Origin: a virus
Virus record (IMG/VR): IMGVR_UViG_3300040801_003252
Span: 1-60,694 of that record
Reading direction: 5' to 3' (one strand)
DNA length: 60,694 nt
Each line of letters starts with the position of its first letter. The stretch's first letter is position 1. A model generated the notes under the pieces. That model did not search any database and was not told where the DNA came from. It was given only the letters and a program-made list of their open reading frames with translations. The position numbers and the translations under genes are program-made. Positions 41,213 to 55,577 of this stretch are shown in pieces.

Positions 41213-41965
41213 TTATTTTAATCCCTGAATTAATGTGTCACCGTATTTGATGCCATCATAACCCATTTTCATTGCTTTCTCAGCAACAGCTTTATTTTTT
41301 ATGTTTATTGCTGGAACATCCTGTTCCGAACCTATTTTTTCAAAATTAATATTAGGGAACCATATTTTTGCCAGAATATCTACTGGTTCCTGACCATCTT
41401 TATATGTTACTCCGAGAGAACCCATATCTAAAAGATTATCAAATTCAATTTCATATTTATCAAAACCATCTTGTGGTTTTAACAAGAAAAAATTACCAAC
41501 AACCGAATTTTCCCTAATAGGGTCTTTTCTGTATGCCGTAATGACCTTGTTGTTTGGTTCACCGTCATTTAGCTCCTGATTACTGTTTTCAAGTTCTTTA
41601 AGAAACTGATTTTCATCATCTCCATAGTAATTAATTACATCTTGTGACACCACTTCTTCCATTTCTTGTGACTGTTCGTACTCGTAGATATCCTGTATTT
41701 TATTAAGTACTCTACAACCATCTCTACTGTTGATATCGATTTTTATCCCGATAATCGGAACCTCATCTTGTAACGCCTTCATCCACCTATGATGACCATC
41801 CAAAATACTGTTATCGGCACTGACCCAAATCGGTTTTTTGTCGTCAATAGTAACACCATTAACCTCATCACTTATCACCAGTCCTTGCATGGGTTTGAGT
41901 TCATCTGGCTCGAATTTCTGCGTAGAATATTTCACACCTTCATCATCAAGTTTTTGAAAAATCAC
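41213..41965 (-). CDS. ParB/Srx-like domain protein, N-terminus interrupted by a stop
   Basis: 250 residues from a GTG at 41965. The core WVSADNSILDGHHRWMKALQ, then VPIIGIKI, fits the ParB/sulfiredoxin-like fold (ILDGHHRW is the signature loop). In phages such proteins are often nucleases or nucleotide-binding factors. An in-frame ATG lies at 42022, 13 bases after a promoter box, but a TAA at 42005-42007 interrupts it after five codons. The 13 codons between that TAA and the GTG (KPRFLPQVSAPYD) read like real protein. So the gene may have lost its native start and now use GTG or CTG. Confidence 0.7.
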   Translation of the reverse strand: MIFQKLDDEGVKYSTQKFEPDELKPMQGLVISDEVNGVTIDDKKPIWVSADNSILDGHHRWMKALQDEVPIIGIKIDINSRDGCRVLNKIQDIYEYEQSQEMEEVVSQDVINYYGDDENQFLKELENSNQELNDGEPNNKVITAYRKDPIRENSVVGNFFLLKPQDGFDKYEIEFDNLLDMGSLGVTYKDGQEPVDILAKIWFPNINFEKIGSEQDVPAINIKNKAVAEKAMKMGYDGIKYGDTLIQGLK

Positions 41966-42035: not shown

Positions 42036-42044
42036 TATAAATAC
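42036..42044 (-). promoter_or_regulatory. Putative late promoter box GTATTTATA
   Basis: Minus-strand GTATTTATA at the end of the HAD gene, 13 bases before the ATG at 42022 whose frame is interrupted. The usual spacing supports 42022 as the original start. Confidence 0.65.
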
Positions 42045-42622
42045 TATGATTTAAATTTTAGAATTTCGTCTTGAATCATGAATTTTAATATGTTTGAGGA
42101 TTCTACCATACTGGAGATGCGACCATCAACAACTCGAATGACATTATATTCAATACCTTTATCTGCCAACACGTCTTTAATTTTAGTGAATTCTCTGATT
42201 TTATCTTCCACACCACCAGCAAAATCATCATATACCACAACATTTTCCAAATCTGGATTGGCTTCAACATATTTGAGAATCACGTCACCCTTATCATCAC
42301 GACCTTTTTTCATTACGATTTCATCGACACCAATGTTATTTAATGCAAGAACATTTTCGATTTGCGGACGTAATTTTTCCTGTCTCGAAGTCAATATAAT
42401 GACATGAGTATCACTGGCATTTCTATCGGAATTCAGTTTCGATAAAATATTGGGTAATGGTTTTATATTAAATACCTCAGTATCCAGACTTTCCGCTCTA
42501 CTCCACCAACCAACATGTGGATAAGGAATACCTTTTGCTTGAGACCATTGCTCCTTACCGCCTTCAGGTGAAGGCGTATTCATTAGAGTTCCATCAAAGT
42601 CGTAACAACATAGTCTTTTCAT
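42044..42622 (-). CDS. HAD-superfamily phosphatase (SAK RNA-repair type)
   Basis: 192 residues. Motif I CYDFDGTLMNTP (DxDGT), motif II VIILTSRQ (T/S), a Lys-containing linker VMKKGRDDKGD, and motif IV-like VVVYDDFAGGVEDKIREF. This layout matches HAD domains described in 'Swiss Army Knife' RNA repair proteins. The reaction would be removal of a terminal phosphate from RNA or a nucleotide; the substrate is inferred. It overlaps the nuclease gene by 4 bases and follows the 1656-residue CCA/2H protein in one operon. Confidence 0.78.
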   Translation of the reverse strand: MKRLCCYDFDGTLMNTPSPEGGKEQWSQAKGIPYPHVGWWSRAESLDTEVFNIKPLPNILSKLNSDRNASDTHVIILTSRQEKLRPQIENVLALNNIGVDEIVMKKGRDDKGDVILKYVEANPDLENVVVYDDFAGGVEDKIREFTKIKDVLADKGIEYNVIRVVDGRISSMVESSNILKFMIQDEILKFKS

Positions 42623-43128
42623 AGTAACGTTTTATATGTCATGTTATTGATTTCCTTGACTTCATCACAATATTCTTCAAATATTCTTGTTGGTATTGTG
42701 TAGAAATTCATTAATTTAACACCACCATCTTCTTGTTTAACTGGATATTTTTTCATGTGAAGAAATTTTGTGGGTTTATGAGGGAATAATGACGTGTGAC
42801 CCTCATGAATACATCTTTTTAATTCACTGGTTTTAATTAAAAAAGTTTTATTCCTATCACTAATAATCCAGTAATCAGCAGTTGTTGTCAAAACACCAGA
42901 TTCACTTCCATTACAATGTGTTTCTATACAGATATTCTGAGTTTCTGCTGCTTTTTCATCGTACTTACATTCGATGGTTTTACCGTTTTCGAGGGTCATA
43001 TCGTATAGTTTCAGATTAGCAGCCACTTCATTCTTTTCGGCTTTTAGTTCTGACTTTCTCCAAATATCTATCCTTATAAACCTCTCGAAAATCTCACCTA
43101 TTTTTAATGATTCTTCCCAAGATGCCAT
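42619..43128 (-). CDS. PD-(D/E)XK-like nuclease
   Basis: 169 residues. LYDMTLENGKTIECKYDEKA gives an Asp, then E-x-K, in the arrangement of PD-(D/E)XK endonucleases, with a Gln/Glu-containing helix after it (AETQNICIETHCNG). The rest is alpha/beta with no other motif. It lies 12 bases after the stop of the kinase-like/CCA/2H gene and overlaps the HAD gene. The substrate, DNA or RNA, is not evident. Confidence 0.6.
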   Translation of the reverse strand: MASWEESLKIGEIFERFIRIDIWRKSELKAEKNEVAANLKLYDMTLENGKTIECKYDEKAAETQNICIETHCNGSESGVLTTTADYWIISDRNKTFLIKTSELKRCIHEGHTSLFPHKPTKFLHMKKYPVKQEDGGVKLMNFYTIPTRIFEEYCDEVKEINNMTYKTLL

Positions 43129-43140
43129 AAATTCAAATTT

Positions 43141-46100
43141 TTATATTTCAGTTATTTTTCCAGTTAGTTTCAATGGGAAGCCCAAAGGTTTCCAATTAGT
43201 TAAATTATTTGACATAAAGGGTTTCCCACCATCCTTTCTATTAACAGCTACTGTAATATGTGGTTTTTCATTTAAAGAATTATAACCTTCAACGCCAACA
43301 GCCAATACTTTGTTATCCATTGCGTAATCCAAGACATTTAAAACAATTTGTTTCTGGTCTTCCATGTCCTGTTTTTCCTCTGAACCGTCTTCAAGACCAC
43401 CCATTTTAATCGTCATGTGATGCGCAATGGTTTCCCAGTCTTCGGGTATCATTGGGGCAAATACTTTAAGTAAATCTGTTCTGGATTTATCGTCAAGTAC
43501 CACTCCACTGTAACTAACTCTTTTCACGTTGTCTTCATTTAAAAGTTCTCTATCAATTAATTCCCAATAGAGAAGTTTATTTAATTTATCGTCATTAACA
43601 AGTTCTTCGAATTTAGCACCTAAAAACTGTTTTACTGTGTTCCTGCTTGGGTCGGTATGATAGCCACCGTTCCACTTATCGTATTCCTTGACGAAATACT
43701 TGATGTCTTGTTCAGTGCCATTTACTTGCCAAGTGTCCTGTGGTTCACTGTAATAATCATAACCTTCCTTCACGTCATCTTTTCTCTCACCTAACAAAGC
43801 TAATAAATCTTCACGAGTATTCCTAACTTTATCGGCATAAATATTAATTAATAACGCTCTCTGCATTTTCCCGATTTCCTGACCTTTTAATCCTGCATCC
43901 ATAATATCATTGCCACTAATCGCCAGTTCTTTCACGGTTTTCGGGTATTTGTTTTGTAACAGTTCTTGCGCTGCAATCCGTATTTTTTCTGGTAATATAT
44001 CACTTTGTAACGATTTACCTGTTTTATCCTTGGTGACCATATTATGTGCAACAGACCTATTAACAGCGGGAATATCGCTATCTTCCGCATTCATACCAAT
44101 AATGAGTCCTTCTAATTCGTTCACGATGTCGGTATCACCACGCATATTATTCATGTAGAATTTCAATGGTGACATGGCATTATGAGAAAGCAGATAAACG
44201 AATTCAGCAAGAGTATTGACGTTATTCCATAACGGACTCACGAGAAGCGGTGCATCAACTCCCATATGTTTAAGCAACCCAGTATCTTTTAATATCATTG
44301 CTGCTTTACTGGCATCACCTTGTTCGGCAATTTTTTGGAACTCGGTTTGAACCCTGTCATTAGCAATACTATTGACTTTATCAGCACTTTCTCTGATTAA
44401 ACCATAGGTTTCAGGGTCTATTTCAAATCCCAATACAGTTGCAAATCTCACGGCACGCAACATACGCAAGGCATCGTCTTCAAATGACTTGGGGTGGGTT
44501 ATCTTGATTTTACCTGCCTTAAGGTCTTGCTGACCATTAAAAGGGTCGATAAGATTGCCTTCCATGTCCTTGGCAATAGCATTAACGGTAAAATCTCTGC
44601 GTTCCAAATCCTTTTCAATTGGTAATCTGTGGTCGGCTTTTATTTCGAAATCCTTATGACCCTCACCTGTTGAGATTTCAGTACGTGGTAACGCCACATC
44701 GATTTCCTCATTACTGCCTTCAGGTACGAATTTCATTACGGCAAAACTTTTACCCACGGCATTTACTGTGCCATATTTGTTGAGAATATGTGCCAATTGG
44801 TCTTCGGGGATACCACGGATGACAATATCTAAATCCTTAGAAGGTCTGCCAAGCATTTGGTCACGAAGCGTACCGCCTACCACATATATCTGACCACCCT
44901 CGGCTTCAATAGTTTCTTTAAATGGAAGGTCATTAACCCCCATACCTTCATCGACTTGTGGAACCAAACTACTATAGTATTCCTCAAGCTCATATTTATC
45001 ATCCCAGTCGCTTCTCTGGATAATTATTTCTTTATTATTTCTCACCATTTCGTATCCCTGTGGTAAATTTTTTCCAATATAGGACAAATATAATGAAAAT
45101 CTTCGGAAATCACCACTCATATTTTTAATTGGTTCGATTACCAACATATCTGGTTTGGTATTAGCAAAAAAACCATTCATTATTTTCAATATAGTTGCCA
45201 TCACACGATACAATCTACCTTTATTCGTGACCTTGGTATAATCCTCGCCTTTGACACCAAAAATAGCATCCCATTCGTTATCATCTAATGAACCTCGATT
45301 AAATTCGATTTCATACCTGTCATTATCTTCGGTTTTAAAACCATAAACCTTATTATTATCAGTACTTTTAATTATCTTGACCTCATAGGGTTCAACGTTT
45401 CCTTCACCTACTTCATCTAATCGTGTGAATTCCAGATTATTTATATCACCCTGATTACAGGCATCACTTGTGCCATCAGCTTTACCACCGAGTTGACAAT
45501 TTTTCTTAACAGTAACGGCTTTAGAACCCGTTACCCATGATTTCTTTCGGTCTTCACTTATTTCATATTCGTCTTCAGTAGCATCACCCTTCACGTGATT
45601 ATATTCAAGGTCTTCATACATCTGAGACGATACATTGGCATCAAGATTATTATTAATTGTTGGTGGTATGTTGCTGTTATTATATGGTGGGAAACCGTCT
45701 GCACCAATTTCATCATCTGTACTGTATATCGAAGTACCGTCTTCATTAATATCGACATCAAATTTTTCCGCATCGGGTCTGGAAAAACCGTCACCAAAAC
45801 CAACATCGAAATAACCGATTAATCCACTTGGCTTGAAACCCAGATTATCGGGATTGAAAAAGTCCAGACTCTGACTTCCATATTTCTCGACTTCATCCCA
45901 GATTCTTAATAAACTATAAAAAAATTCTCCGTCTTTGGGGTTTTTCTTGAAATAGTTTTCAACGTCTTCACGTTTAACGTTATTGGGTAGCTCTTCTTCA
46001 TCATGTATGGCTTCAGCAGCATCTTTAAACCTAACACCAAATATTTTATCAAACACATAATCTAATCGATTATACATTCTATTAAAATACTCGTCATCCG

Positions 46101-48111
46101 TTCTTAGTTTCTCCAATATAATTCCATATGTTGGATGTTGTAGTTCTTTGTTGGGTTGGATTTCAAAAACCCTATATGGTTGAGCTATATATTTCAAAGG
46201 CTTCCCAATCATTCTCAGATTATCATGCGCCTCACTTTGGTCTCTGGTTATTTTCAATATTTTATCATCACCAATATCATATGCAACCCCGAATTCACCA
46301 GCACCGATGAATTGAGGACTCAGACCAAGTTTTGTTCCCACACTACTGGCAATTTTATCAGCAACTTCTCTATTATATTTTTCTTCAAGTTGTTGTGATT
46401 CAGGTATTTGAATCACTTCGGTGTCAGGTATATTTGGTTCATCACGACTGACATAACCACCGATATCGAAAAATTTTAATTTACCGTTTTTGTATCCAAG
46501 ATTATTTATTGTGATGTAGTCCGTTGACTTTATGTTATAATCAATTAGTTCCTGACGAATTTTCAGGATATCCATGAGATATTCATACGCTGCCTGTCTA
46601 TCGGCATCACTTACACCAGCGTTGGGGTTAGCTGTTAGAATTTGTTTGGCGAATTCCTGCCATTCATCGAAATCAAAACGATTTGGTTTTCTTATGTCAA
46701 CCAAAATATCTTCGTAGTGCATGTCACTTGGATTGATTTCAGAGATGATGTTCTGTAATTCCCTGATTCTATCGATGGGTTTATCAGCAATATTTTCTTG
46801 TAGAATAACGAAAAACGATTTGTCGTTTTCTGTGTCATGAATTTTATATAAATTATATATTTCACTGAGATGTTCGGGATTCGCTCTCATTAATTTAGAC
46901 GCTGCATCGGCTTCACTGACATCGGAAGTAATCTTAAGAACTACGTTATCATCGATTTCATAAGCAAATCCAAATCCACCACTACCTAAATATTTTGGTG
47001 TTGTTAAATTCAGTTTATCGGCAACATCTCTTACAAGTTCATCAGCATAGCTTCTATCGTTTAACGTATTTTGTTCTACTTTGGGTGCGTCTTCCCTAAT
47101 CATGTATTTTTCTGAAACAAGTGGTTCTCTGTTATAAAATCCTCTTCTAATCAGATAACCTTGAAGTTCAAGTAGATTTCCGTAGAATTTCTTTTTATCT
47201 TCTACGGTTTCCAATACTGTTTTTAAATTGTTTATACATTCATGAAAACGGTCGGTGAGTTCGGGTAAACCATCAATATTTTTATCGGGATATTTGCTCC
47301 TGTTATTCACAAAATTCACGAATTGTTGCCCCTCTTCCATATTAATCACACCATCACCATCGCCTACACTATATGGCATTTGTGCCCACATTCCGTGTTT
47401 AATTTCTTGAGCACTTCCGATATCACTAAGTATGTCGTCATTACCATCAGCAAACTGAAATAACTCGTACATCTGGTATCTCTGCTTGTTTTTACCGCTA
47501 TAATGCGTATCATAAACCTCGTCATTAAGACCGTAATCAGTTAAAACAATTGCGGGTTGACCATCACGAATAACCTCACCGTAAGAACTTGGTCTACCCA
47601 TATCGCCAGCAGATTGTCCATAGTTACCAATAAAATCAAGTAACGAACTACTGAAATCGTTTTCATCCCAAAAAAATTCCTTTTCTTCTTGAGTGAAATC
47701 GTTTCTCTGATAACTTTGTCTGCTTTTATTGCTTTGTTCGAAGTCAATTAGAAATTCTGCCATTCTGGTAAAATCGGGAATGTCTTCAAGTTCTTCTATT
47801 CGTTTTTTCGTTACTTTTTTTGCTTTTTCAGCAACTATCCAACTATTGTCTTCAGCAGCATCATAAACTTCTGTGATTAAATCTTTTATATAGTAATCAT
47901 TCATCATTCCCGACTCTACTTCGTTTTGAGCAATACCCTTACGATTTAAAGCGAGTTTTAATACTTTCTCACCATCAATATCATATACCGCACGACCACT
48001 ACCACTACCTATTCTGGTAAGATATTGGTCTGCGAGTCTTTTTTTTCCAGCAAAAGACCTGATGTCATTTAATTGGGGTAGGAATTTTTCTTTGAATTCC
48101 GCATATGTCAT
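43141..48111 (-). CDS. 1656-residue protein: three kinase-like domains, CCA-adding nucleotidyltransferase, 2H phosphoesterase
   Basis: Kinase-like units have a Gly loop, a VAIK-type Lys and a DFG-like site: GSGSGRAVY (35-43), K52, TDYG (191-194); GSGGFGFAY (376-384), K393, FDIG (548-551); GAGEFGVAY (603-611), K620, FDVG (768-771). A linker with one short Cys cluster follows (872-885). Residues about 1070-1445 are a class II CCA-adding/poly(A) polymerase: VVGGTLRDQMLGRPSKDLDI, RRDFTVNA (1171-1178), DPFNG (1189-1193), RMLRAVRFA (1216-1224) and a C-terminal body (AISGNDIMDAGLKGQEIGKM). Residues about 1530-1656 have two HxT motifs (HMT 1565-1567, HIT 1618-1620), as in 2H phosphoesterases. The catalytic HRD of the kinases is unclear. 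Combined roles in RNA end processing are inference. Confidence 0.85.
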   Translation of the reverse strand: MTYAEFKEKFLPQLNDIRSFAGKKRLADQYLTRIGSGSGRAVYDIDGEKVLKLALNRKGIAQNEVESGMMNDYYIKDLITEVYDAAEDNSWIVAEKAKKVTKKRIEELEDIPDFTRMAEFLIDFEQSNKSRQSYQRNDFTQEEKEFFWDENDFSSSLLDFIGNYGQSAGDMGRPSSYGEVIRDGQPAIVLTDYGLNDEVYDTHYSGKNKQRYQMYELFQFADGNDDILSDIGSAQEIKHGMWAQMPYSVGDGDGVINMEEGQQFVNFVNNRSKYPDKNIDGLPELTDRFHECINNLKTVLETVEDKKKFYGNLLELQGYLIRRGFYNREPLVSEKYMIREDAPKVEQNTLNDRSYADELVRDVADKLNLTTPKYLGSGGFGFAYEIDDNVVLKITSDVSEADAASKLMRANPEHLSEIYNLYKIHDTENDKSFFVILQENIADKPIDRIRELQNIISEINPSDMHYEDILVDIRKPNRFDFDEWQEFAKQILTANPNAGVSDADRQAAYEYLMDILKIRQELIDYNIKSTDYITINNLGYKNGKLKFFDIGGYVSRDEPNIPDTEVIQIPESQQLEEKYNREVADKIASSVGTKLGLSPQFIGAGEFGVAYDIGDDKILKITRDQSEAHDNLRMIGKPLKYIAQPYRVFEIQPNKELQHPTYGIILEKLRTDDEYFNRMYNRLDYVFDKIFGVRFKDAAEAIHDEEELPNNVKREDVENYFKKNPKDGEFFYSLLRIWDEVEKYGSQSLDFFNPDNLGFKPSGLIGYFDVGFGDGFSRPDAEKFDVDINEDGTSIYSTDDEIGADGFPPYNNSNIPPTINNNLDANVSSQMYEDLEYNHVKGDATEDEYEISEDRKKSWVTGSKAVTVKKNCQLGGKADGTSDACNQGDINNLEFTRLDEVGEGNVEPYEVKIIKSTDNNKVYGFKTEDNDRYEIEFNRGSLDDNEWDAIFGVKGEDYTKVTNKGRLYRVMATILKIMNGFFANTKPDMLVIEPIKNMSGDFRRFSLYLSYIGKNLPQGYEMVRNNKEIIIQRSDWDDKYELEEYYSSLVPQVDEGMGVNDLPFKETIEAEGGQIYVVGGTLRDQMLGRPSKDLDIVIRGIPEDQLAHILNKYGTVNAVGKSFAVMKFVPEGSNEEIDVALPRTEISTGEGHKDFEIKADHRLPIEKDLERRDFTVNAIAKDMEGNLIDPFNGQQDLKAGKIKITHPKSFEDDALRMLRAVRFATVLGFEIDPETYGLIRESADKVNSIANDRVQTEFQKIAEQGDASKAAMILKDTGLLKHMGVDAPLLVSPLWNNVNTLAEFVYLLSHNAMSPLKFYMNNMRGDTDIVNELEGLIIGMNAEDSDIPAVNRSVAHNMVTKDKTGKSLQSDILPEKIRIAAQELLQNKYPKTVKELAISGNDIMDAGLKGQEIGKMQRALLINIYADKVRNTREDLLALLGERKDDVKEGYDYYSEPQDTWQVNGTEQDIKYFVKEYDKWNGGYHTDPSRNTVKQFLGAKFEELVNDDKLNKLLYWELIDRELLNEDNVKRVSYSGVVLDDKSRTDLLKVFAPMIPEDWETIAHHMTIKMGGLEDGSEEKQDMEDQKQIVLNVLDYAMDNKVLAVGVEGYNSLNEKPHITVAVNRKDGGKPFMSNNLTNWKPLGFPLKLTGKITEI

Positions 48112-49847: not shown

Positions 49848-50408
49848 TTACGCTGTTGATGAATTATATTCATTACTACCCTTATAAGTATTTTTCTTAA
49901 TCAGATTTTCTCTCATCTGGATATCGCAAGTCGTGCCAACAACACCACCCTGATTTTCAGGGTCACGTCCTCGACAATCGCCATCGGAAATCGTGTCTTC
50001 ATGTCCTACACAATACTGGTCACTACCCTTATAAGTATTTTTCTTAATCAGATTTTCTCTCATCTGGATATCGCAAATCGTACCAATCGCTAAACTATTA
50101 CCTTCGGGGTCACGTCCTCGACAATCGCCATCAGAAATGGTGTCTTCATGTCCCAAACAATACTGGTCGCTTCCTTTATACGTATTTTTTTTAACGAGAT
50201 TTTCCCTCATCTGGATATCGCAAATCGTACCAATTGTTATGCTATTGCCTTCAGGGTCACGTCCTCGACAATCGCCATCAGAAATGGTGTCCTCGTGTCC
50301 AGAACAGTATTCATTCCCCGGGGTATAACCCGCTGAATTGAATTTCAATGAACATGTCCTGAATTCTTCACCACTTTTTAATAATCTGCTGCTTTCTTCG
50401 TCTGCCAT
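49848..50408 (-). CDS. Cys-rich protein with three 49-residue repeats
   Basis: 186 residues. After a 33-residue lead come three near-identical units (34-82, 83-131, 132-180), each with YC.GHEDTISDGDCRGRDPE, then TICDIQMREN and KKNTYKG. Each unit has three Cys. At DNA level the period is 147 bases. It could form a rigid disulfide- or metal-bound rod on the virion surface; no family is recognised. It is the first gene of a two-gene operon with the WYL-like gene. Confidence 0.7.
   Translation of the reverse strand: MADEESSRLLKSGEEFRTCSLKFNSAGYTPGNEYCSGHEDTISDGDCRGRDPEGNSITIGTICDIQMRENLVKKNTYKGSDQYCLGHEDTISDGDCRGRDPEGNSLAIGTICDIQMRENLIKKNTYKGSDQYCVGHEDTISDGDCRGRDPENQGGVVGTTCDIQMRENLIKKNTYKGSNEYNSSTA
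49869..50309 (-). repeat. Tandem 147-base coding repeat, three units
   Basis: The segment TCTCATCTGG recurs at about 49911, 50058 and 50205, exactly 147 bases apart, and neighbouring sequence is highly similar. The first two units (lower coordinates) are the closest pair, suggesting recent duplication. Confidence 0.85.
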
Positions 50409-50448: not shown

Positions 50449-51219
50449 CTAATCGTATTTTTTAAACACGAGAGTAATGTATTCAATTAAATGTGGAACG
50501 GTATCGAGATATTTCATTTCGCCCACACCATACCATCCATAATTACTGTTTTCACCCTCATCAAGTTCAACATCGGTTTCCTCTCCATCATATCTACAAG
50601 CAAAAAGAGTTTCCTCGCTGTTCCCGTGTCTATTAATTTTAAAAGATTCCACACAATCCTCGATTTCCAATCCCGTTTCTTCCAGAATTTCTCGTAAACA
50701 CGCTTTTTTTGCGGTCTCACCTTTTTCAATTCCACCACCGACAAGTGACCATTTATTGGGTTGCCAGATATCTGGGTTATTAGTTCGTTTCAATAATAAT
50801 ATCTTATTATCTGAGTTAACGATAACCGCTACGGCATTCTTATCGATTTTCTCCTTGACTTCATTAAGTCGGGGTTGTGCCTGATATGGTTTTAATTGTG
50901 AATTAGGGTCTGCTTTTATTGGTCTCCTTGCTTCTTTCGACCTTGCAGCACCTGCTCTTTCCTGATTTAATTTCTGGTCAATAAAGGCTTCCATATCTTT
51001 CCCACCTGCAAGTTTATATTGAGCACTCTGTTTATCCATCCTCTGCATATCGTGTTTCAATCTCTTCATCGCCTGATAAGTCAGAAAACGATTTTTAACG
51101 ATGTTTTTAGCTCGATTCTTGCCGTTTTCGGTTGGGTATGATGTCAGTATACCCCTGACGTAATTAATGACAGCAGGAGGAATCTGATAGCGTTTATTAT
51201 ATAATTCTTGATTAGCCAT
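50449..51219 (-). CDS. Nudix hydrolase with extra N-terminal domain
   Basis: 256 residues from the ATG at 51219. Residues about 125-250 are a Nudix fold: VAVIVNSDNKILLLKR, then the Nudix box GGGIEKGETAKKACLREILE + ETGL (GX5EX7REUXEEXGU). The N-terminal 120 residues are helical and basic (YQAMKRLKHDMQRMDKQSAQ), unlike ordinary Nudix enzymes, and could tie the enzyme to the virion or nucleic acid. Nudix enzymes hydrolyse nucleoside diphosphates linked to X; the substrate is unknown. It overlaps the gene upstream by 8 bases. Confidence 0.88.
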   Translation of the reverse strand: MANQELYNKRYQIPPAVINYVRGILTSYPTENGKNRAKNIVKNRFLTYQAMKRLKHDMQRMDKQSAQYKLAGGKDMEAFIDQKLNQERAGAARSKEARRPIKADPNSQLKPYQAQPRLNEVKEKIDKNAVAVIVNSDNKILLLKRTNNPDIWQPNKWSLVGGGIEKGETAKKACLREILEETGLEIEDCVESFKINRHGNSEETLFACRYDGEETDVELDEGENSNYGWYGVGEMKYLDTVPHLIEYITLVFKKYD

Positions 51220-51832
51220 TTTCTCTCTCAATTAAGTTAATCAAGTCATCGATGTCCTTCTTTTCCAATTTATTAATTAAGCCAGCGATTTTTTTGATTT
51301 TCTTATCTCTGAGTTCTTTGTCTTCTGACTTTTCAGCCATTTCATCTTCTTTCTTATCAACCATTTTTTCGGCTATCACGCCTTCGTCAATGGTTTCAAT
51401 ATCATTTAAGGCTTCCTCAAAATGCTTTTGAACAATTTTGATAACTTTTTCTGCCCATTCTTTATCTGTGTTTTCAGGACTCCCGTTATCAATAACATGT
51501 TTACGATAATCAGGTTTTAATTTATTGGGGTTTTTGAAATAATATTTAAGAAAATCAAGATATTTTTCATACATTAGGTCAACTAAATCATTCTTAAATT
51601 CTTCCTGACCTTCGTTACGTTCTTCGCCTTCCATGAAAGGCATAAGAGTGAAACCAAAACGACCCAACATATCATATCTAAACGGCTGAGTGCCGATTTT
51701 CGCATTTTTACTGGAAGTACCCTTCGCTTGAGATTCTAAATCACTACCGTTTGTAGGGATATCATCTGTGCCAATTAAATCTCCGTGTCCATCAATTATT
51801 TCATTGATTTCTTTCTTTTTTAATTTCATCAT
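51212..51832 (-). CDS. Charged hypothetical protein
   Basis: 206 residues, rich in Lys, Glu and Asp. Recognisable features are an N-terminal basic stretch, a central part with FRYDMLGRFGFTLMPFMEGE and YLDFLKYYFKNPNKLKPDYR, and a C-terminal charged helix (DKELRDKKIKKIAGLINKLE). No catalytic motif. It is first in the operon with the Nudix gene, 12 bases after a promoter box (an ATG three bases later is also possible). Function unknown. Confidence 0.65.
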   Translation of the reverse strand: MMKLKKKEINEIIDGHGDLIGTDDIPTNGSDLESQAKGTSSKNAKIGTQPFRYDMLGRFGFTLMPFMEGEERNEGQEEFKNDLVDLMYEKYLDFLKYYFKNPNKLKPDYRKHVIDNGSPENTDKEWAEKVIKIVQKHFEEALNDIETIDEGVIAEKMVDKKEDEMAEKSEDKELRDKKIKKIAGLINKLEKKDIDDLINLIERENG

Positions 51833-54800: not shown

Positions 54801-55577
54801 CAAAATAACTGCTGGTTTAATGTAATCGATGAGATTAAAGATGTCCTGAATCAACTTGATTTCGGCTTCATCACAGTCTTTTTTCTCGGCATGCAATATG
54901 GTTTCGAAACCCCTATTGTCTCTCACACCTACACTTACAATTCTACCGATTTGATAACGAAGTGCTGTGGTCTCGATATCAAATGTCAGGCGATGAACTT
55001 CTTTATATTGTTCGTAACCCTTATATAATCTGGATTGCGTGCTTATAAAAAATTGTTCGGTAAGGCGGGGTGCATAAAATAAATGCCTGTTTTTATAAAT
55101 GATTTTATTGGTTCTGGGGTCTCTTACGAGTTGACCGTCTTCGTCATATAGTTTTTCAAAAGGGTCGATGCCACCATCTCTGAGAAAATTAGTGATATCA
55201 TCGCTGGATTTCGTGCTACTTAATTTATAACAATAACCATCAACAAGTCGTTTCTGATTACCTGTTTTGAGTTTGGTTATGGTTATCCCGTACTTAACTT
55301 TCTTACTTTCAATATATTCATCAGTCTTGCCAGCGTACAAAACGATTCCGTTTTTCTCCAAGTCTTTCACGTATTGAAACGGAGTATATCTTATCTTTTC
55401 GATTCTCGGTGGTTGATTGGGTTCATGAATAACGCATTCCGCAACATCTGTCTTTCTATCGGTTTCGACATTGACTATGTACTTGAATTCGTTATTATAG
55501 CCTTCGAGAAAACCCTTGATTTCACCTAAGACTTTGTGCTTGTCCATTTCAATAGTGTGTCCTGTTTTTTTACTCAT
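51882..55577 (-). CDS. Family-B DNA polymerase with 3'-5' exonuclease
   Basis: 1231 residues, longer than T4/RB69 polymerases (about 900). Exonuclease motifs: Exo I FDIETT (199-204), Exo II GHNSEEFDFDF (260-270), and Exo III probably around YSIIDTLHA (320-328). Polymerase motif A DYASLYP (539-545), motif B KILNNSLFGALG (626-637), motif C CVTDGVNF (678-685). Motif C is unusual: the usual DTDS reads VTDG, keeping only the second Asp. The extra 550 C-terminal residues include thumb-like helices (KIASKSKVKQTLKAYGKRGT) and charged low-complexity ends. It is the phage replicase; it overlaps the helicase gene by 8 bases and shares its early promoter. Confidence 0.95.
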   Translation of the reverse strand: MSKKTGHTIEMDKHKVLGEIKGFLEGYNNEFKYIVNVETDRKTDVAECVIHEPNQPPRIEKIRYTPFQYVKDLEKNGIVLYAGKTDEYIESKKVKYGITITKLKTGNQKRLVDGYCYKLSSTKSSDDITNFLRDGGIDPFEKLYDEDGQLVRDPRTNKIIYKNRHLFYAPRLTEQFFISTQSRLYKGYEQYKEVHRLTFDIETTALRYQIGRIVSVGVRDNRGFETILHAEKKDCDEAEIKLIQDIFNLIDYIKPAVILGHNSEEFDFDFILGRAKILKMNLNDLPQGLKENVPLRRRGNTSVKYGNTSDKYTATEMWGYSIIDTLHAAKKTAAVNTDLKKTSLKYIAKFEKFARQNRTYIKGDDIGKMYNDNKVHVINEKNEYLQIPEEYQEVGRNLYKLQANKDKLSSEEYQGLRKKYLDASQGFVGWFRENAAGKKMTKFIGGKKIVNQYLLDDLWETEQVDELYNQSSFMLAKIVPTTYQRVCTMGTASVWNLLLTAWSYENDLAIPIPDVNENFGGGLARTFKKGYTERLIKIDYASLYPMIQLTHDVFPMFDITGVMKKMLLYMTTTRNIYKKMGAELELDAEEIGLLKQIDFEAYEKFKSDTLTSQDISMFKVKQLPIKILNNSLFGALGSDISFNWSDNVCAGRITSIGRIELRHAIHWFAQFGCVPLLCVTDGVNFKIPDVTNIRVTDEGVTEGTTEGLNEEMWEYGGKTGIQALIEKFNAEEMPKPYMAVDDDGESVSCFNLSRINYATLSLIKNKKTGETKEKIKLTGNSIKSKALPEYIEEFIDKGLELILHGKGKEFVDYYYNYVEDIRYMQIPLKKIASKSKVKQTLKAYGKRGTDKNGRKKAMQAHMELLIQDRQKKAVELFEKHKLDIGYEGDGSELSPDDKMKLIIDYMPPEPELDSTVYYVNTGYVKSHGDSKEIKDKDTGEMRMASTLISTEDLEQNPDIKGSYNYEKYLAAFNERICYTQKKIGGLLSAFEPEVAKKIPATIIKKGEKKGELHKEMFTSEQLRLKNFDFDTFDEGMHLEDKEIDFWNKTGYDPRLVWDGFKMRDDYKIHYEIYDGALEFLNEKMRAQGKSEIKSINSDYQDGDLVLIKDNTKYHVGAFNGVYIQIVRSDVDIPKSETELELDRRRQEKEKKGEELKSTELSPETDAEEFHKVQIKKREKYFEDFKKVFNLDNTITLEMVYNDTEAFGALETFVTTQEKQIAEEASEYLDAE

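Follow-up and report, generated by a model that had tools for sequence, protein, structure and literature searches.

What a phage would do with a single protein that joins kinase-like units, a tRNA nucleotidyltransferase and a 2H phosphoesterase is the question raised by an open reading frame on the minus strand at 43141–48111, unbroken from ATG to stop and 1656 residues long, in a 60.7-kb uncultivated virus record whose whole length (60,694 nucleotides, hereafter the window) was analyzed. A preliminary description had assigned to it three kinase-like domains, a class II CCA-adding enzyme and a terminal 2H domain, and had read it as a self-contained protein for RNA-end sensing and repair that counters tRNA-cleaving defense or keeps tRNAs charged. 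The reading frame and the domains quoted there are borne out by the ORF listing of the window, Pfam, AlphaFold2 with structure comparison, and conservation; each listed unit was confirmed, although a further domain (aa 894–1040) had been missed and close relatives carry the modules as adjacent ORFs. From the ORF, Pfam/PHROG matches and relatives, we describe a modular protein of the order K1-K2-K3-LD-CCA-T-CPD (43141..48111, with all of its modules on the minus strand). Module mapping of viral contigs recovered the full K1-K2-K3-CCA-T-CPD chain in the window and in three other distinct sequences (L011, L029, and L065), and since many more sequences carry partial fusions, a sequencing artefact can be ruled out. 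The catalytic residues of CCA, CPD, K2, and K3 are kept in alignments across 9–21 relatives, far beyond chance.

The CCA domain (aa 1059–1445; 43777..44937), placed by Pfam, a PDB profile and fold, has the head-neck-body-tail layout of a class II tRNA nucleotidyltransferase and no HD domain (no HD family match in the Pfam scan). All of the class II motifs named in the preliminary description were located in the region from residue 1077 to beyond 1397: VVGGTLRD (1077–1084), KDLDI (1092–1096), RRDFTVNA (1171–1178), FEDDALRMLRAVRFA (1210–1224), and AISGNDIMDAG (from 1397). The class II signature is satisfied by D1093/D1095 (the motif A DxD), RRD at 1171–1173 and D1212-D1213-x-x-R1216, this final (E/D)DxxR motif carrying a Glu-to-Asp change; the catalytic positions are invariant in 16–17 rows of relatives. 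Pfam matches PolyA_pol here (E 1.6e-23) together with its RNA-binding domain (E 8e-11), the T. maritima CCA enzyme matches the region over its full length, and a profile of the domain run against PDB sequences reaches 9.5e-44 to 1miv. For AlphaFold2, an alignment without isolate-phage rows was used. The model of aa 1051–1656 (pLDDT 83.5), built from 17 sequences, superimposes end to end on 1miv, the HD-less CCA enzyme of B. stearothermophilus (Z 29.2, 372 of the 395 residues of 1miv, rmsd 3.5). The NCBIfam equivalog NF009814 scores 158 bits, below its cut-off of 290 though aligned over profile positions 11–394 of 396, so it is the fold and the motifs that argue for a predicted CCA specificity over a poly(A) one; on these the domain is a class II CCA-adding enzyme.

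A small conserved linker module, T (aa 1455–1527; 43531..43749; module mapping of relatives, AlphaFold2), lies between the CCA domain and the CPD (aa 1528–1656; 43144..43530), a 2H 2',3'-cyclic phosphodiesterase of the tRNA-ligase/CNPase type by Pfam (tRNA_lig_CPD) and fold. The two terminal HxT motifs reported earlier are H1565-x-T1567 and H1618-x-T1620, kept in 16–17 of 17 rows, and the 2H assignment built on them agrees with both the Pfam family and the CNPase fold. Every one of the 14 sequences in the domain alignment matches the tRNA_lig_CPD family (E of 0.1 or lower); scanned alone, the window CPD scores 24.7 bits against a cut-off of 23, and in the whole-protein scan it scores 19. A CPD profile run against PDB sequences gave only chance Myb/endonuclease matches, and the subtype was settled by fold search, in which the CPD region of the AlphaFold2 model matched the catalytic domain of CNPase (Z 12.6 over 122 residues, rmsd 2.3). 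AlphaFold, which the preliminary description had named as a check, hence predicts both the CCA fold and a CNPase-like 2H fold. The CPDs of CNPase and Trl1 convert 2',3'-cyclic phosphates to 2'-phosphates; profile and fold place the C-terminal 2H in this CNPase/Trl1 CPD subtype, a predicted opener of 2',3'-cyclic phosphates.

The N-terminal half is built from kinase folds, two of them intact and one probably degenerate where three like units had been described. K1 (aa 1–335; 47107..48111), a relative of phrog_4301 identified by PHROG, alignment and AlphaFold2 and present at 54 viral loci, has a G-loop (GSGSGR35–40), K52, E66, D170, and DYG192–194, with S176 in the place of the catalytic-loop Asn. 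That Asn is replaced by Ser, Thr, or Leu in 21/21 family members and is kept by the standalone K1 relatives that were aligned; of the kinase residue set (Lys, Glu, catalytic Asp, Asn, DFG-Asp), K1 thus lacks the Asn, whereas at the positions checked K2 is invariant and K3 conserved. By sequence K1 looks like a pseudokinase, probably, on a different branch from K2 and K3. K2 (aa 352–570; 46402..47058) is a kinase fold stopping shortly past the DFG (G-loop at 376, K393, E400, D531, N537, DIG549–551), in which K393, E400, D531, N537, and D549 are invariant wherever the domain is present, and K3 (aa 580–785; 45757..46374; K620, D750, N756, DVG769–771) is a second copy of the same type, homologous to K2 at E 9e-17. 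In an AlphaFold2 model of aa 1–790 (pLDDT 80.7), K2 resembles PKR (Z 11.1) and K3 resembles CDK2 (Z 9.3), the fits spanning the N-lobe and a short stretch to just beyond the DFG, so that the kinase units are truncated. We rejected membership of the Kinase-PolyVal family, since its profile PF18762 matched none of 11 records, the window among them, and none of the A4 members; a tblastn search of isolate phages with K2 likewise gave no reliable match.

Between K3 and the CCA domain lies a cassette whose content varies. A conserved linker, CQLGGKADGTSDACNQGDINNLEF (aa 872–895; 45427..45498), stands ahead of it in close relatives, where the motif CRLGG.GNTS.ACNQGDINNL immediately precedes the cassette. 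The window carries LD here (aa 894–1040; 44992..45432), a domain with an EVGEGN..PY start that was detected by local profile search, which also returned four homologues at the equivalent place in L084, L103, L100, and L101 (114–132 bits); LD alone returned no contigs in the viral contig scan and no reliable tblastn match in isolate phages. LD is a swappable module found in several related polyproteins. Elsewhere the cassette holds GNAT (L014, L015, and L017), ART-PolyVal (L013) or, in further relatives, other modules, and an additional 2H domain matching the Acb1 profile occurs in L018 and L019. In these two, the Acb1-like anti-CBASS 2H is inserted after CCA in a polyprotein/CCA ORF that keeps T, and the CPD is a separate next gene.

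Downstream of the CPD, a gene of phrog_13596 (42619..43128, minus strand), with a similar gene at the equivalent place in 31 loci, is followed by a putative HAD phosphatase of the SAK/PNKP RNA-repair type (42044..42622, minus strand), which is linked to the CPD in 74/96 loci and fused in L105 and L109. The window gene scores 24.4 against the HAD_SAK_1 cut-off of 25.6, and the fused homologue of L105 scores 32.3. A ParB-like gene (41213..41965, minus strand; DGHHR motif read from sequence) is a syntenic downstream neighbor in 66 loci. Several further observations concern these surroundings. In L118 (6368–7288), L024, L098, and others, the HAD gene has a C-terminal extension with an ADP-ribosyltransferase-like YHGT...SFTS...YY pattern and no Pfam match. 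The gene at 50449–51231 encodes a Nudix hydrolase with an N-terminal extension, and there is also a match to the Nudix portion of a family of phage portal proteins (phrog_15528); the gene is an upstream syntenic neighbor in many of the 28 loci with a homologue. The 186-aa product of 49848–50408 consists of near-identical repeats of ~40 aa (GHEDTISDGDCRGRDPEGN...), with relatives varying in length from about 84 to 211 aa, and the C-terminal part of the helicase ORF at 55570–58428 matches phrog_26446 (E 1e-10), a family of anaerobic ribonucleotide reductases from phages, which may reflect an insert or a shared domain.

To place the protein among its relatives, we scanned viral contigs. A whole-protein back-translation scan came back empty, whereas domain-wise alignments succeeded: the K1-based scan gave 54 loci and the CPD-based scan 80, with more from a scan that used distant CPDs. 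Cellular genomes yielded a single match, on a contig in a Bacteroidota MAG, which is too little to name a host. The module order is K1-(K2/K3)-variable cassette-CCA-(T)-CPD, laid out as a single ORF or as consecutive ORFs. After removal of near-duplicates, 67 non-redundant CPD clusters remained for counting; a CCA gene lies within 6 kb of the CPD in 54 of these (the two forming one ORF in 27/67), and a HAD gene is near the CPD in 52/67. Because most clusters share one syntenic phage block, the fair test of linkage is provided by the 20 clusters outside it, where CCA occurs in 9, HAD in 6 and a P-loop polynucleotide-kinase-like domain in 7; at an expected rate of 5%, which is assumed, CCA in 9/20 has a probability of about 2e-7. 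The HAD gene may be a bystander in the syntenic block; outside it, HAD is seen in only 6/20 clusters. Matches to the RNA ligase model PF09414 were found in 18/28 contigs, mostly distant from the module, and this co-location was set aside, as the model also matches E. coli and B. subtilis in a control.

Fusion has come about in more than one form. CPD, CCA, and HAD form a single chain in L105 and L109 and consecutive ORFs in L136, while L184, L202, and L207 encode compact CCA-CPD proteins of 520–779 aa without kinases, whose CCA lineage is split from that of the window by branches with 100/100 support. Counting only branches with good support, the tree requires nine or more switches between fused and unfused CCA-CPD. 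The CPD is joined to CCA enzymes of two distant lineages, and the fusions are independent and repeated. A few relatives (L086, L102) have lost the CCA head or have it split off. Among distant relatives, nine ORFs fuse a P-loop kinase to the CPD, with the layout of CNPase and of the healing half of Trl1; in L032, L035, L037, L039, L119, and L133, a P-loop polynucleotide-kinase-like domain is joined to the CPD, mostly near a standalone K1 gene, as a phage form of that kinase-CPD layout.

From what is observed (the reading frame with its domains and their folds, active sites that are conserved, the linkage, and fusion on several occasions), we consider it moderately probable that the C-terminal half and the downstream HAD gene constitute a predicted module for RNA 3'-end healing and CCA rebuilding on tRNAs; the order of reactions, the tRNA substrate, the role of the kinases and the purpose are what we infer. 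The CPD would act like CNPase and Trl1, opening a 2',3'-cyclic phosphate at a damaged tRNA 3' end to leave a 2'-phosphate; the HAD phosphatase would strip the phosphate left behind, and the class II CCA enzyme would restore C, CC, or CCA, making the tRNA chargeable again. An HD-less CCA enzyme would in this way obtain its phosphodiesterase and phosphatase steps from the CPD and the HAD protein, a combination with clear biochemical logic because the HD domain serves an equivalent purpose in the E. coli and mycobacterial CCA enzymes. The purpose would most likely be to keep tRNAs usable under host cleavage or damage, and also to complete phage tRNAs. The kinase folds have no supportable place in this RNA 3'-end pathway, and a kinase role for them is a prediction; with the swappable cassette (LD here; GNAT, ART-PolyVal, or an Acb1-like 2H in relatives) they may be further host-directed modules of the chain. 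The earlier idea of RNA-end repair gains support from the CPD type of the 2H domain, from the linkage of CCA, CPD, and phosphatase across many phages and from the independent fusions. Other parts of the earlier description fared less well: a self-contained protein is not supported, since the phosphatase that would act on the CPD product is encoded by a gene of its own further downstream, and nothing was found that points to sensing. Nor is repair of anticodon-cleaved tRNA supported, as this needs a ligase and CCA addition acts on 3' ends only; the module contains no ligase, and sealing a broken anticodon would be beyond it alone.

The same genes could instead be housekeeping, with the CCA module finishing the 3' ends of phage tRNAs and the CPD and HAD proteins acting as ordinary end-cleaning enzymes in the absence of any host attack. 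No tRNA genes were found within the 60.7-kb window, but related contigs hold up to 61, and 111 of 123 sampled tRNAs (about 90%) do not encode CCA, which makes maturation a serious rival; most phage tRNA genes encode only C74 (44/45). Against it, some large contigs with the module have few tRNA genes (218 kb with one, 200 kb with one, 246 kb with four, and 148 kb with none, though contigs may be incomplete), hosts normally possess their own CCA enzyme, and maturation leaves the CPD unexplained because exonucleases and RNase Z yield no cyclic phosphates. We regard this explanation as rather unlikely. The tRNA loci of related phages (L147, L149, L151, L153, L157, L158, L160, and L175) display a conserved partial CCA: C74 directly follows the discriminator in 44/45 covariance-model matches, C75-A76 is almost never encoded, CAA is commonest and CCA accounts for 3/45, and an ARAGORN-based count agrees (112/121).

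A different objection is that the adjacency of CCA and CPD is incidental, both being parts of a polyvalent injected effector, a chain of independent early-infection activities that enters the cell along with the DNA. Delivery with phage DNA is a published theme for polyvalent proteins (PMC5512222), and GNAT, ART-PolyVal, and Acb1-like modules do swap within the same chain, with modules split or fused. Yet CCA and CPD remain neighbors while the other modules change, and they are fused in the 520–779 aa proteins that lack kinases and belong to another CCA lineage; as the Pfam polyvalent kinase family (PF18762) also went undetected in the 11 records, incidental adjacency appears improbable to us. 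Least likely, and by our estimate very improbable, is that the 2H domain degrades cyclic nucleotides that serve as alarm signals, in the Acb1-like manner (anti-CBASS or anti-type III), with the CCA enzyme a separate matter. Phage 2H enzymes are capable of this, Foldseek weakly matches the 2H to a phosphodiesterase from a phage (9q2y, E 9e-3), and an Acb1-like 2H is present in some relatives. However, the Acb1 profile PF23474, which does match the L018 and L019 inserts, matched neither the window protein nor the A2 members, all members fit tRNA_lig_CPD instead and the best fold is CNPase, for which reasons we rejected an Acb1 identity for the C-terminal 2H. Since the relatives with an Acb1-like 2H still keep the CPD, the two are not interchangeable.

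Returning to tRNA 3'-end healing as the preferred reading, its use against host defense deserves separate consideration. Inactivation of tRNA is a growing theme in antiphage immunity, which phages are known to answer by supplying replacement tRNAs or by ligating tRNAs broken at the anticodon. Replacement would be no help against an attack on the tail, because the CCA tail is universal. Counter-defense is a plausible role for the module, but the form in which it was first proposed is not supported, as the data do not separate it from the maturing of CCA-less phage tRNAs. We advance only tentatively the fuller proposal of a phage counter-defense in which a single assembly both heals tRNA 3' ends and rebuilds them, so that infection could go on under an acceptor-end attack by bacterial immunity (for example by Cas12a3, or by RNases leaving cyclic phosphates near the 3' end), with CPD-CCA(-HAD) having evolved more than once. 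Cas12a3 removes tRNA tails, and its discoverers remark that viral resistance to it would call for means as yet unknown (PMC12851939); it is reported to retain an ACCA product (PMC12851939), and as this implies that the discriminator base is lost too, full restoration of a Cas12a3-cut tRNA may take more than adding CCA. toxSAS enzymes are reported to pyrophosphorylate the CCA end of tRNA (PMC11559606), and CdiA-CT EC869 cleaves the acceptor stem to leave a 2',3'-cyclic phosphate (PMC9071432). These are acceptor-end attacks in existence and may be candidate targets only; for cuts within the stem, adding CCA would not suffice. If the conserved, repeatedly fused CPD-CCA-HAD module acts as proposed, it would be a phage answer directed at the tRNA 3' end, and the question posed by Cas12a3 (PMC12851939), how phages could withstand the cutting of tRNA tails, becomes testable with a specific gene.

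Among known systems, the whole protein is of the polyvalent type, because its kinase folds and swappable cassette share a chain with CCA and CPD. Several conflict-related domains (K, CCA, and CPD here; GNAT, ART-PolyVal, and Acb1-like 2H in relatives) and module exchange are both present. Iyer et al (2017; PMC5512222) described long proteins of phages that contain 2H domains and kinases without a C-lobe, with phosphorylation of host proteins as a guess for the kinases and with 2H domains proposed as RNases or signal-degrading enzymes, not tied to RNA repair; a CCA-adding enzyme goes unmentioned there. Our protein shares with these the very long chain, the mix of kinase-like, 2H, GNAT, and ART domains, the exchange of cassettes and a relative with ART-PolyVal; it differs in having a CCA enzyme and kinase units that do not match Kinase-PolyVal. 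Iyer et al (2021; PMC7824862) list a 2H phosphoesterase, a SAK-type HAD phosphatase and a CCA-adding enzyme among the RNA-repair parts of jumbo phages. Each is treated there as an enzyme in its own right, the 2H and HAD proteins working with RNA ligases, and the text consulted describes no CPD-CCA-HAD linkage or fusion. The preliminary claim that no described protein has this domain set holds insofar as we found no description of a CPD-CCA fusion in the open-access literature (subscription papers lying outside the scope), but the architecture itself recurs in the three further sequences. What is new is the genomic context, namely a CPD, a CCA enzyme and usually a phosphatase, adjacent or fused across dozens of related phages, and this linkage points to a viral device that would mend the 3' ends of tRNAs damaged by bacterial defense.

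The 2H subtype is shared with the kinase-CPD of fungal Trl1 and with vertebrate CNPase, whose P-loop kinase-CPD layout appears in the distant phage relatives, whereas the window protein has neither ligase nor P-loop kinase and its CPD is partnered by a CCA enzyme instead of a ligase. The CCA enzymes of E. coli and mycobacteria (M. tuberculosis Rv3907c) use an HD domain to remove 2',3'-cyclic phosphate and phosphate from tRNA 3' ends (PMC10673834). The phage system is like these HD-type enzymes in coupling class II CCA addition with (here predicted) removal of 3'-end phosphate; it is unlike them in that its CCA part has no HD domain, that an unrelated 2H/CPD and a HAD protein would supply these steps, and that kinase folds and swappable modules are added, and it would thus represent a non-homologous route to a bifunctional CCA enzyme of the E. 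coli kind.
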